Positions 3,696-19,078 of a stretch of 31,460 nt of DNA are shown one piece after another. A model generated the notes under the pieces. That model saw only the letters and a program-made list of their open reading frames with translations. It did not search any database and was not told the DNA's origin. The translations under genes were made by a program, and so were the position numbers. This stretch comes from Candidatus Mcinerneyibacteriota bacterium (lineage in GTDB: Bacteria > Macinerneyibacteriota > Macinerneyibacteria > Macinerneyibacteriales > DSCS01): positions 1 through 31,460 of the forward strand of contig JAFGWL010000028.1 in assembly GCA_016937175.1 (NCBI GenBank), in the 5' to 3' direction. The first letter of the stretch is position 1. Each line of letters opens with the position of its first letter.

Positions 3696-4478
3696 GTGAA
3701 AAAAGAGTTGTGGCAGGAGCGTGTCATCGAATTACAGGAACTTTTAACAAGAGGTTCAGTTGAGCGCTGGGAATCCCTGGCAGAGACGGAGATGAGAGAG
3801 GTCGCTGAGCCTCTGGAGGTTTCCGATCTGGCTCAGGCCATCGACCATACACTTCTGGACCCTTTCGCCCGGGAGGAGGATATCAGCCGTGTCTGTGCTG
3901 AAGCTGCGCATTTCGGGATCGGGACTGTCTGCCTTTTTCCCTGCTGGATGCTTCTGGCAAAACAAATGAGAGACGAGCTCAAAGGGGCATTTCACATCTG
4001 TGTCGTCATCGATTTCCCGGGAGGAGGAGAGCTTACCGTTACGCGGGTAAAAGCTGTTGAAAATGCCTTTAAAAGAGGATGTGACGAAGTGGATATCGTC
4101 ATCCCTCTGAGCCTTTTCCTGTCCGGGAATTATACGGCTGTCCTGGAAGACCTTTTGTCTGTGAGAGAGGCTGCCCCGGGAATCGTCAAAGTGATTTTGG
4201 AGATGTCGAGATTAAGCCCCCTCCGGAAGAAAGATGCCGCACTTATCGCCTTTGTTTCGGGAGCCGATTTTCTCAAGACCTCCACAGGGGTCAACGGGAA
4301 AGCCGTCGAGGAGGATGTCCGTCTTCTCCGAGACCTGGCCGGAAAGATGTGCGGAGTCAAAGCAGCAGGAGGGATCCGGAGCCGCCATGAGGCTCTTTCC
4401 ATGCTCAAAGCCGGGGCGGACCGTATCGGGAGCAGCGCAGGGCCCCTTTTGTTAGAGGGGCCTAAGCTGCATGAATGA
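3696..4478 (+). CDS. deoC: Deoxyribose-phosphate aldolase
   Basis: A 260-aa class I aldolase that cleaves 2-deoxyribose-5-phosphate to acetaldehyde and glyceraldehyde-3-phosphate in deoxynucleoside catabolism. The TIM-barrel landmarks are present: AIDHTLLDP near residue 49, CDEVDIVIP with Asp133, the Schiff-base lysine in FLKTSTG (Lys194), and the assisting lysine in VKAAGGIR (Lys222). The start is GTG at 3696 after AGAGAGGGG. About 45 residues precede the conserved core, a charged helical N-terminal extension also seen in longer family members. The usual VGFP-x-G loop reads IDFPGG here. Its 3' end overlaps the convergent LuxR-type gene by 17 bp. A purine nucleoside phosphorylase lies about 17 kb away, completing a possible deoxynucleoside salvage route. 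Confidence 0.93.
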   Translation: MKKELWQERVIELQELLTRGSVERWESLAETEMREVAEPLEVSDLAQAIDHTLLDPFAREEDISRVCAEAAHFGIGTVCLFPCWMLLAKQMRDELKGAFHICVVIDFPGGGELTVTRVKAVENAFKRGCDEVDIVIPLSLFLSGNYTAVLEDLLSVREAAPGIVKVILEMSRLSPLRKKDAALIAFVSGADFLKTSTGVNGKAVEEDVRLLRDLAGKMCGVKAAGGIRSRHEALSMLKAGADRIGSSAGPLLLEGPKLHE

Positions 4479-5394
4479 TATTGATGAGTTCCACCCGGCT
4501 ATTGATGCCGAATTTCTGATAAATGTTATAGATATGATGCTTTACCGTCTGTTCTGATAAAGAGAGGTCCCAGGCGATCTGTTTATTACTCATCCCCTCG
4601 CAGACGTAACGGATGATCTCGCTTTCCCTCTTTGAGATGTTCTTTTCCCCGAAGAGAGCCTGAAGACGCTCTTCCTTCTTATCGTCATGGATAAGCTGTC
4701 CGAAGTAGTTGTCAGAGAGGCGTCTGATCAAAAGAAGGGGAAGGCCGTTGAGAAGGAGATAGTAGAGGGCGCCTGGAATACCCGCCTGGCGCGTGATGAC
4801 CATCTGGAAAGTAAAGAGGTGGAAAGCAAAGAGCAGGGTGTAGAAAGCTGCCAGGATAAGGATGAGAAAGGTCCGTTGTTTTGACCTGATCCGTCCCAGT
4901 GAGAGGAGAAGGCGGATATTGGAGAGGATCATGATAAAGAGAAGCACTTTTACGGAGACCACGCTGAACGAGGAGATCATCAGGGAGCTCTTGGTAAGAA
5001 GGTAGATCCGTGTAAAGAAGAGAAAGACCAGGATCAAAGCTCCGGAGATGACGGTAAATATGATCCCAACGGTTTTTTCAGACTCCTCATGGAGGAAACG
5101 AAGCGTCATGAGGACATAACTGTAAGCGGAAAGAAGTGTAAATCCAAGGAGAGAGACGACGTAGACCAGGTTAAGAGCCAGAAAAGAACTGAAGTCCCCG
5201 CCCATGAGAAGGTTTGTGGCTGCATATTTCGTTGCAAGCTGGAAGAGAAGGGAAAGGAGTGAAAAAAGGTAAAAGGAAAAGTAGTAATCCAGGAAGGTCT
5301 GTTTATAACGGGTGCGCAGCTGGGTGATAGATATCAGCAGGCCGAACCCGAAGATGATACTGATGAACTTGAGAAAAATCACAATGTGTTCCAT
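4462..5394 (-). CDS. Seven-TM membrane-anchored LuxR-type transcription regulator
   Basis: A 310-aa protein with two parts. Residues 1-225 contain seven hydrophobic segments (about 5-25, 38-57, 72-95, 108-128, 137-157, 172-193, 200-220). Residues 245-310 form a GerE/LuxR winged helix-turn-helix with SKRESEIIRYVCEGMSNKQI and SEQTVKHHIYNIYQKFG. No kinase, receiver or known ligand domain is present, so sensing would occur in the membrane part and DNA would be bound from the membrane. The promoter at 5403-5431 is near consensus and ends 8 nt before the ATG, with no ribosome-binding site: predicted leaderless. A perfect palindrome 10 bp beyond its -35 is a likely autoregulatory operator. It is divergent from the secreted TPR gene at 5571, its likeliest target. 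The inducing signal is unknown. Confidence 0.88.
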   Translation of the reverse strand: MEHIVIFLKFISIIFGFGLLISITQLRTRYKQTFLDYYFSFYLFSLLSLLFQLATKYAATNLLMGGDFSSFLALNLVYVVSLLGFTLLSAYSYVLMTLRFLHEESEKTVGIIFTVISGALILVFLFFTRIYLLTKSSLMISSFSVVSVKVLLFIMILSNIRLLLSLGRIRSKQRTFLILILAAFYTLLFAFHLFTFQMVITRQAGIPGALYYLLLNGLPLLLIRRLSDNYFGQLIHDDKKEERLQALFGEKNISKRESEIIRYVCEGMSNKQIAWDLSLSEQTVKHHIYNIYQKFGINSRVELINIIHAA

Positions 5395-5402
5395 ATGATA
5401 AA

Positions 5403-5431
5403 ATTTTACTCTCCTCTGAGAAGGGTGTCAA
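5403..5431 (-). promoter_or_regulatory. Promoter of the 7-TM LuxR gene, predicted leaderless
   Basis: Minus strand: perfect TTGACA, 17-bp spacer, TAAAAT. Only 8 nt separate the -10 from the ATG at 5394. Confidence 0.7.
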
Positions 5432-5441
5432 GAAAGGGGAG

Positions 5442-5459
5442 GTGATACTTAAGTATCAC
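5442..5459. promoter_or_regulatory. Perfect 18-bp palindrome, probable LuxR operator
   Basis: GTGATACTTAAGTATCAC is a perfect inverted repeat of two 9-bp arms, 10 bp upstream of the LuxR gene -35 and about 57 bp upstream of the TPR gene -35. Its size and symmetry fit a dimeric helix-turn-helix protein. That the neighbouring regulator binds it is inferred from position. Confidence 0.65.
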
Positions 5460-5475
5460 TTCGGCAGATGAACGG

Positions 5476-5484
5476 AAGTATCAC
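5476..5484 (+). promoter_or_regulatory. Additional operator half-site
   Basis: AAGTATCAC exactly repeats the right arm of the palindrome, 25 bp further on and 31 bp before the TPR gene -35. The opposite arm is not conserved (3 of 9 positions), so it is a single half-site. Confidence 0.5.
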
Positions 5485-5515
5485 GTTCTGAAGCCAAAAG
5501 CAAACTTAAGTTTTA

Positions 5516-5544
5516 TTGAACCCTTCTCATAGGGGACGGATAAT
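5516..5544 (+). promoter_or_regulatory. Promoter of the secreted TPR gene
   Basis: TTGAAC, 17-bp spacer, GATAAT. A leader of about 20 nt with AGGAGGT precedes the ATG at 5571. Confidence 0.6.
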
Positions 5545-5570
5545 GAAGCATCAACCACAGGAGGTGGATT

Positions 5571-6512
5571 ATGAGAAAGACAGTTGCCTTTGCGCTGCTT
5601 GCCCTGGTAATGATCCTGCCGGCTCTTTCCCAGGAGATGAATTCTGAGAACATCTATAAGAAAGCGGAAGAACTCTTCTATAACGGAAACTACATGGAAG
5701 CCGCAGAACTGGCCGGGAAAGTCCTCCAGGATGCTGACCTTGGCTCCAAGGCCAATATCCTCATGGGACGTGTCTATATGGCCCTTGAAAACTACGATAA
5801 GGCCATCGAGTATTATGATAAGGGGATCCAGGCTGCCGACAAGACGAGAGACACGGTCAACATCGCCTGGGCCTATAACAACATCGGCGTCATCTACAAG
5901 ATGAAGGGGAACTATCAGAAGGCCCTGGATTATTACCAAAAAGCCCTGATTATTGATGAAGCTTTTAACCTGAAGTATGGCATGGCCCGGGAATATAATA
6001 ATATTGCCAATATCTACTATATCCTCGGGAATAAGAAGTTTGCCCAACTCTTCTATCGAAAGGCTCTCTGGGCCAACCAGGAGATCAATCATATCGAAGG
6101 GTTAGGCATCGCTTACAACAACCTGGCCTCTTACCACTACAACGATGATAACTACACCAAGGCCATCGAGTATCTGAACTATGCCATCAAGTATGATGCT
6201 CAGCTTCCCTACAAAGGGAACCTGGCCGATGATTATCAGAACCTCGGCATCATCTACGAGACCATGGGAGACTATGAACGTGCCAAGGAGAATTATCTGA
6301 AGTCATTGGACATCAACCTCAAGATCGGTGTCTTTTCCAAGATCCTGCAGAACTATGAGAATCTTTCTTTCCTCTATGAGAAGAAGAAAGACTATCCCAA
6401 AGCCATCGACTACAGGGAAAAGATGATCGAGGTCGACCGCAAAGCCGGGTTTATGAGGATCTACCGCGACCAGGAACATCTTAAACGCCTCAATGAAAAG
6501 CTGAATCAATAA
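5571..6512 (+). CDS. Secreted tetratricopeptide-repeat protein
   Basis: A 313-aa protein with an N-terminal signal peptide (MRKTVAFALLALVMILPALS) and then about seven TPR units filling the rest. Typical repeats include YNNIGVIYKMKGNYQKALDY, YQNLGIIYETMGDYERAKEN and YENLSFLYEKKKDYPKAIDY. No catalytic domain or lipobox cysteine is seen, so it is probably a periplasmic protein-interaction scaffold. The start is fixed by AGGAGGT about 6 nt before the ATG. It is transcribed away from the 7-TM LuxR gene, with shared operator sequences between them, which suggests regulation by that protein or a role in its signalling. A hairpin terminator follows at 6526. The binding partner cannot be told from sequence. 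Confidence 0.9.
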   Translation: MRKTVAFALLALVMILPALSQEMNSENIYKKAEELFYNGNYMEAAELAGKVLQDADLGSKANILMGRVYMALENYDKAIEYYDKGIQAADKTRDTVNIAWAYNNIGVIYKMKGNYQKALDYYQKALIIDEAFNLKYGMAREYNNIANIYYILGNKKFAQLFYRKALWANQEINHIEGLGIAYNNLASYHYNDDNYTKAIEYLNYAIKYDAQLPYKGNLADDYQNLGIIYETMGDYERAKENYLKSLDINLKIGVFSKILQNYENLSFLYEKKKDYPKAIDYREKMIEVDRKAGFMRIYRDQEHLKRLNEKLNQ

Positions 6513-16777: not shown

Positions 16778-17237
16778 GAATTTTCTTTTTCCGGCGCAGA
16801 TGTTCGAAAAAACGACTGAGGAGAGCCGAGGAGGTGCCTTTGCCGAGGCCTTCTTCAAAATCAGGGATATGATTGAGCCATTGAAAATCATAGGCTCTGA
16901 CACACGTGACCAGGGCCCCGGCTTTTGGGTCAGCCGCCCCGAAATAGACTTTACGGATCCGGGCCAGCGAGATAGCGCCGGCGCACATGAGACAGGGTTC
17001 CAGGGTGACATAGAGGTCGCATTCTTCGAGCCTCCAGGATCCTCTCTTCCGGGAGGCCTCCCGGATAGCGATGATCTCTGCATGGGTAGTGGGGTCCTGG
17101 CTGGACTCTCTGAGATTATGGCCCCGGCCGATGATTTCTCCGGCATAGACCACGACGGCTCCCACAGGGACTTCTCCTTTTGCATAGGCCTTCAGAGCCT
17201 CTTTCAGGGCCTGGCGCATAAAAATATTTTGCTTCAT
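16758..17237 (-). CDS. tadA: tRNA-specific adenosine deaminase
   Basis: A 159-aa zinc deaminase that converts A34 to inosine in the tRNA(Arg) wobble position. The zinc and catalytic residues are visible in THAEIIAI (His52, Glu54) and EPCLMCAGA (Cys82, Cys85). GEVPVGAVVV and DPKAGA are TadA-typical. The start is ATG 17237: TATAAT lies only 6 nt upstream, so the message should be leaderless, and the in-frame extension to 17282 would run through the promoter. It is divergent from the radical SAM gene at 17322, which has the same promoter layout. Confidence 0.94.
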   Translation of the reverse strand: MKQNIFMRQALKEALKAYAKGEVPVGAVVVYAGEIIGRGHNLRESSQDPTTHAEIIAIREASRKRGSWRLEECDLYVTLEPCLMCAGAISLARIRKVYFGAADPKAGALVTCVRAYDFQWLNHIPDFEEGLGKGTSSALLSRFFEHLRRKKKILNGGSI

Positions 17238-18197: not shown

Positions 18198-19078
18198 CGT
18201 CTTCTTTTCTCCAGGGCCAAAAGAAGGGCCGCGGTCATCCCTCCCAGAAGAAGAAAGATCAATGCCGTGAAAAGGCCGCTCATGCGGAGCTCAGCATGGC
18301 TCAGAACCAGGCTGGCCGGTTTCCTCAGGGCCCCGGCTATAAACCCGCTCAAAAATGCGAGAGTGATTCCGTGATACTTTGAAAGAAGAGCTTTGATCCC
18401 CTTGGATACGGTCATCAGCCCCAGGCCGATTCCGGCAAAAAGGCATAAGAGAGCCAGAAACGCCTCTGCCGGAAAAGGAAGAGGTACAGAGAAAAGAGAA
18501 AAGATATAGTCGATAAAGCTGTTGCCGTATGAGATGACAGGTTCGTAAAAACCTGTGATCAGGAGGATAAACGAGCCGCTTATACCGGGAAGCATCATAG
18601 CGCTTACGGCAAAGATCCCCGCGGGGAAAAAAGCGGCGGCTCCGGGGAGGCCGGCTTCCCTCACCGGGAGTCCGGAGACGAGGAAAGCAGCGATGGCTCC
18701 CACAGTCAGGGCGGCGAGACGTTTTCCCTTGATGGGAAAAGCCTCTTTCAGAGGCTGATGAAGAGAGAAGAGGATAAGGCCGATAAAAAAAGCATAGGTC
18801 TCCGCAGGGAACCGGGAGAGAAGGAGACTCATAACCTTGATGCCCGTGACCAGAGCTGTGAGGATGCCGGCTCCCAGAAGCAGGAGAAAATCCCGATGGG
18901 GCTGAAAGGCTTTCCTGTCAGTGAAAAGAGAGGTCAGGGCGCTGAGCCCCTCGATAAAGGGAGTATAGATCCCCGCCAGGAGCGCGATGGTCCCTCCTGA
19001 GATCCCCGGGATGATATCGGCGATCCCCATCAAGAAACCTTTGATGATAAGAGTGAAGGGAGTATTCCGGGTTGTCAT
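18176..19078 (-). CDS. popT: DUF368 / PopT-type polyprenyl-phosphate translocase
   Basis: A 300-aa inner-membrane protein with eight or more hydrophobic segments and the two diagnostic repeats of DUF368: FLMGIADIIPGISGGTIALL near the N-terminus and MLPGISGSFILLITGFYEP in the middle. Family members (PopT) recycle undecaprenyl phosphate from the outer to the inner leaflet of the cytoplasmic membrane for peptidoglycan and O-antigen synthesis. The ATG at 19078 lies 6 nt after TATACT of a near-consensus promoter, so the gene is predicted leaderless; there is no ribosome-binding site. The assignment to the family is firm; the exact lipid is inferred from the family. Confidence 0.9.
   Translation of the reverse strand: MTTRNTPFTLIIKGFLMGIADIIPGISGGTIALLAGIYTPFIEGLSALTSLFTDRKAFQPHRDFLLLLGAGILTALVTGIKVMSLLLSRFPAETYAFFIGLILFSLHQPLKEAFPIKGKRLAALTVGAIAAFLVSGLPVREAGLPGAAAFFPAGIFAVSAMMLPGISGSFILLITGFYEPVISYGNSFIDYIFSLFSVPLPFPAEAFLALLCLFAGIGLGLMTVSKGIKALLSKYHGITLAFLSGFIAGALRKPASLVLSHAELRMSGLFTALIFLLLGGMTAALLLALEKRRRQGNSRP

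Follow-up and report, generated by a model that had tools for sequence, protein, structure and literature searches.

Conserved half-sites and an apparently species-specific palindrome between divergent genes for a membrane LuxR-type regulator and a secreted TPR protein

The 176-bp gap between divergent genes for a membrane LuxR-type regulator and a secreted TPR protein likely serves both genes of this local pair as a control region. In our best reading of the sequence, the perfect 18-bp palindrome in this gap would be a species-specific elaboration, and the conserved control elements would be a block next to the TPR -35 and two half-sites, one of which overlaps the palindrome. We give roughly an even chance to a scheme in which the membrane LuxR recognizes a set of half-sites, activates the TPR gene and tunes its own gene.

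Results

Gene pair and genomes compared

The window (the whole stretch of DNA that was analyzed, 31,460 nucleotides) is contig C40 of a 1.88-Mb genome that is 98.66% complete (G000). Three genomes of the phylum were compared: G000 itself, G001 from the same genus and G002 from the same order. A contig scan for more relatives added no full-length relative beyond the G001 contig. The features of the locus are listed in Table 1.

Table 1. Features of the LuxR/TPR locus, in window coordinates, with their state in G001 where available.
Feature	Position	Strand	Description
Membrane LuxR-type regulator	4462..5394	-	7 TM helices, residues 2-234; GerE HTH, 252-305
luxR promoter, predicted	5403..5431	-	TTGACA-17-TAAAAT; 11/12 matches; in G001, -35 identical and -10 present as TATTAT
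Conserved half-site 1	5442..5454	-	ACTTAAGTATCAC; G001 ACGAAGGTATCAG
Perfect 18-bp palindrome	5442..5459		GTGATACTTAAGTATCAC; left arm 7/9 and right arm 3/9 kept in G001
Conserved half-site 2	5472..5484	+	ACGGAAGTATCAC; G001 ACGAAAGTGTTAG; includes repeated AAGTATCAC
-35-proximal block	5496..5515	+	AAAAGCAAACTTAAGTTTTA; 18/20 in G001; abuts TPR -35
TPR promoter, predicted	5516..5544	+	TTGAAC-17-GATAAT; 9/12 matches; both hexamers identical in G001
TPR gene Shine-Dalgarno	5560..5566	+	AGGAGGT, from sequence; conserved in G001
Secreted TPR protein	5571..6512	+	signal-peptide-like N terminus, then all-TPR superhelix; Pfam TPR families

The divergent LuxR/TPR pair was found in the same orientation in all three genomes. 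Identity to the G000 proteins was 66% (G001) and 29-30% (G002) for LuxR and 75-77% (G001) and 55-56% (G002) for the TPR protein. Because the outer neighbors of the pair differ in G002, the pair can be regarded as a conserved unit, and its retention in three of three genomes despite these differing neighbors makes a shared control region plausible.

Membrane LuxR-type regulator

The C-terminus of the regulator matched the GerE HTH (PF00196, E 1.3e-19, 70 bits). This score exceeds the curated Pfam cut-off of 23.5 and places the protein in the LuxR/GerE (NarL/FixJ) family. This HTH matched the C-terminal domains of NarL, DosR, VraR and LiaR at ~1 Å rmsd (Foldseek). The structure model showed seven long helices followed by the HTH (mean pLDDT 75.9), and the hydropathy and charge pattern of the N-terminal part also gave seven TM helices. 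The predicted loops held 14 K+R inside and 4 outside, which therefore argues for an N-out/C-in orientation. The predicted architecture is a polytopic membrane domain with a cytoplasmic HTH.

The autoinducer-binding domain of classical AHL-type LuxR proteins was not found in the N-terminal part, which consists of the seven TM helices. The 7-TM part matched no Pfam family and no PDB fold at E 0.001 or better, and a profile search of 386 genomes returned relatives only in the three genomes of this phylum. Matches to GPCRs (TMq up to 0.45) were rejected as homology. Sequence change in the 7-TM domain is rapid: 58/231 positions are shared with G002, against 163/285 in the TPR partner.

Secreted TPR protein

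The signal peptide of the TPR protein was judged by eye from the sequence. The closest folds to its model (mean pLDDT 92.2) were the TPR domains of LGN and kinesin light chain (Foldseek). Among NCBIfam models, that of the FimS sensor kinase scored best, although well short of its cut-off, and the nearest TPR paralogue in G000 (L073 1048-2724, G000:C31) appears fused to a GGDEF domain. Both the sub-cut-off match and the fused paralogue are only hints of a signaling role. The TPR protein may be an effector or co-sensor of LuxR.

Promoters and start signals

Three promoter-like sites were found, compared with 0.6 in shuffled sequences. The two opposing promoters that a preliminary description of this DNA had called well formed scored as claimed (11/12 and 9/12 matches), and hexamer identity between G000 and G001 was 6/6 for the luxR -35, the TPR -35 and the TPR -10. 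The predicted transcription starts are at about 5551 for the TPR gene and about 5396 for luxR. The luxR transcript is predicted from sequence to be leaderless. A distance of 8 nt (6 nt in G001) separates the end of the luxR -10 from the ATG, and the interval 5394-5408 (minus strand) contains no Shine-Dalgarno, whereas that of the TPR gene (AGGAGGT) is strong. The LuxR start M-E-H is kept in G000 and G001 and reads M-L-E-H in G002.

The 18-bp palindrome

Both sequence observations of the preliminary description were exact: the inverted repeat at 5442-5459 is perfect (GTGATACTTAAGTATCAC), and its half-site recurs without change at 5476-5484 (AAGTATCAC). Copies of AAGTATCAC lie at 5442-5450 (-), 5451-5459 (+) and 5476-5484 (+), and an unrelated copy was found at 18371-18379 (-), with 0.11 matches expected in the whole window. 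Even with 3 mismatches allowed, no other site in the window matched GTGATACTTAAGTATCAC. In dinucleotide shuffles, the expected number of perfect palindromes with arms of at least 9 was 0.0013 for the 176-bp gap and 0.13 for the window. One further perfect 18-bp palindrome, TCCGGGAGGCCTCCCGGA, is present in the window, at 17048-17065 inside a deaminase-like coding sequence (TadA-type, by eye).

It is highly unlikely, in our judgment, that the palindrome in the gap is chance or neutral sequence without a role. Its uniqueness in the genome, its lack of conservation and the presence of the second palindrome in a coding region would fit such an origin, but the expectation of 0.0013 in the gap, the core that it has in common with another gap palindrome (see below) and the conservation of its left arm all run against it. 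No terminator-like site was found, and the palindrome sits upstream of both promoters; a terminator or transcribed hairpin was therefore rejected.

The preliminary description had named a lack of conservation of the palindrome in relatives with both genes as grounds for refuting its reading, and the dyad as drawn was indeed not conserved. With up to 3 mismatches allowed, GTGATACTTAAGTATCAC was found in neither G001 nor G002, and in G000 it matched this locus alone. The stretch after the palindrome was 3/11 identical in G001, and G001 retains the repeated half-site as AACGNAAGT. G000 and G001 agree at 51/54 positions of the GerE domain and at 19/19 of the recognition helix. DNA-binding specificity is therefore expected to be the same in both, so that a change in specificity does not explain the loss of the palindrome in G001, and the operator should be among the conserved elements.

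These results make it unlikely that the palindrome with its AAGTATCAC repeat is the main LuxR operator for both genes, as was originally put forward. Perfect symmetry, improbable by chance, would suit such an operator, and so would the conservation of the left arm and the repeated half-site in G001. The ACTTAAGT center may resemble the cores of DosR/VraR-type GerE sites. However, the palindrome is missing in G001 despite the near-identical HTH domain, and its right arm is identical there at 3/9 positions. What stands of the shared operator is the pair in three of three genomes, with both promoters and two of the three half-sites kept in G001; the palindrome itself does not.

Conserved half-sites and the -35-proximal block

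The gap alignment consisted of two sequences, G000 and G001, the G002 gap being too diverged to align. In G001, two of the three half-sites are found at the same place and in the same orientation, and the half-site at 5471-5484 is 10/14 identical. Half-sites 1 and 2 are mutually inverted, with a 17-bp spacer in both genomes. Neither G000 nor G001 has an exact match to this spaced, inverted pair outside this locus; since these loci supplied the pattern, the result shows uniqueness and not independent discovery.

The best-conserved block between the -35 boxes was AAAAGCAAACTWARGTTTTA, which immediately precedes the TPR -35. The -35-proximal block includes a second perfect dyad, AAACTTAAGTTT (5502-5513), which was absent from the preliminary description and has the core ACTTAAGT in common with the 18-bp palindrome. 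As ACTTAAGT/ACTAAGGT, this third element is centered at ~-43.5 from the start at 5551. Two palindromes with arms of at least 6 occurred in the gap in 0.1% of shuffles. When compared with all 8-mer palindromes, ACTTAAGT was nonsignificant after multiple testing. Identity in G001 between the -35 boxes was 29/39 in the three candidate sites and 21/44 elsewhere (Fisher test, P = 0.015, with the sites picked post hoc).

The G002 gap has AATACTTTCG and AAACTAAAGTTT, which are similar to the half-sites. Their significance varied with the motif: P < 0.001 for a single 10-mer selected once the sites had been seen, P = 0.03 for an 11-mer with one mismatch and P = 0.18 for a PWM from the other sites. As operator-like sites they are suggestive only. 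Genome-wide, neither the palindrome nor the -35-proximal block matched any other locus when up to 3 mismatches were allowed, giving no sign of a wider regulon, and the 11-bp half-site showed no excess in G000 (11 matches compared with 20 for the reversed control).

Counting this LuxR, two GerE proteins passed the Pfam cut-off in G000, two in G001 and one in G002. The other G000 protein (L079 792-1499, G000:C5) has 235 aa and is response-regulator-like. The gap could in principle be a shared operator for another regulator, either a second GerE protein, which both G000 and G001 possess, or an unrelated repressor, with LuxR acting elsewhere; a palindrome could suit many dimeric regulators. We consider this improbable, as local regulators encoded divergently from a conserved partner usually control the gap between the two genes and the LuxR/TPR pair is kept across the order.

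Discussion

A scheme in which the local LuxR acts through the half-sites can be outlined as follows. LuxR would sit in the membrane by its seven TM helices, with the HTH in the cytoplasm, and once activated would bind the half-site array AC-NN-ARGT(RTYA) between both promoters. The site abutting the TPR -35, in a class II position (~-43.5), would activate the TPR gene. From its position upstream of both -35 boxes, the inverted pair 5442-5454/5472-5484 could support either promoter, and it may also mediate autoregulation of luxR. The palindrome would have arisen because site 1 gained a mirror arm in this species, and is probably a stronger site there, not the ancestral operator. We infer LuxR binding in this gap and activation, and likewise autoregulation and the direction of control in the pair.

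Membrane-embedded LuxR proteins have only recently been described as a family. A compact pair with a short control region, kept in a little-known phylum, would make a simple model of how such proteins reach and select DNA. The locus also illustrates that the palindrome that stands out most is not necessarily the conserved operator.

Co-component systems such as VtrA/VtrC and ToxR/ToxS, in which a membrane-tethered transcription factor adjoins the gene for a periplasmic partner, resemble the arrangement observed here (PMC9214523). In those systems, however, the factor is of the ToxR type, its partner is lipocalin-like and the two genes form an operon (PMC9214523), whereas the genes here are divergent and encode a GerE HTH and a TPR partner. 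The likeness consists only of adjacency and the signal-peptide-like N terminus. A more speculative reading, which we hold to be doubtful, is a split co-component receptor, made of the lineage-specific 7-TM-GerE protein and the periplasmic TPR protein: the TPR superhelix would capture a peptide or protein signal for presentation to the 7-TM domain, and via the three-site array the regulator would drive its own sensor's gene.

The LuxR proteins of Coriobacteriia with 10-12 TM helices (DadR, HcdR and CadR; Eggerthella lenta) activate genes near their own loci, and their TM domains are less than 20% identical among themselves (PMC9734109). By published description, they have an N-terminal polytopic membrane domain and a C-terminal GerE HTH, as does the regulator described here, and DadR is opposite in orientation to its target, as LuxR is divergent from the TPR gene (PMC9734109). 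The seven TM helices predicted here fall outside the 10-12 of the Eggerthella type, and the neighbor is a secreted TPR protein instead of a metabolic enzyme. ComA of Bacillus subtilis uses an inverted repeat and downstream direct-repeat elements, with different sites serving type I and type II activation (PMC4797271). ComA promoters thus share with this gap the GerE-type HTH family and an inverted repeat with extra elements, but the ComA hexamer (TTGCGG) and its 4- and 5-nt spacers differ from the sequence and spacing here (PMC4797271). The layout of the gap fits a GerE-type activator with a class II site at the TPR promoter and, upstream, an inverted pair available to both promoters; ComA is a precedent for mixed arrays of this sort, and the E. 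lenta LuxR proteins are a precedent for polytopic activators of nearby genes.
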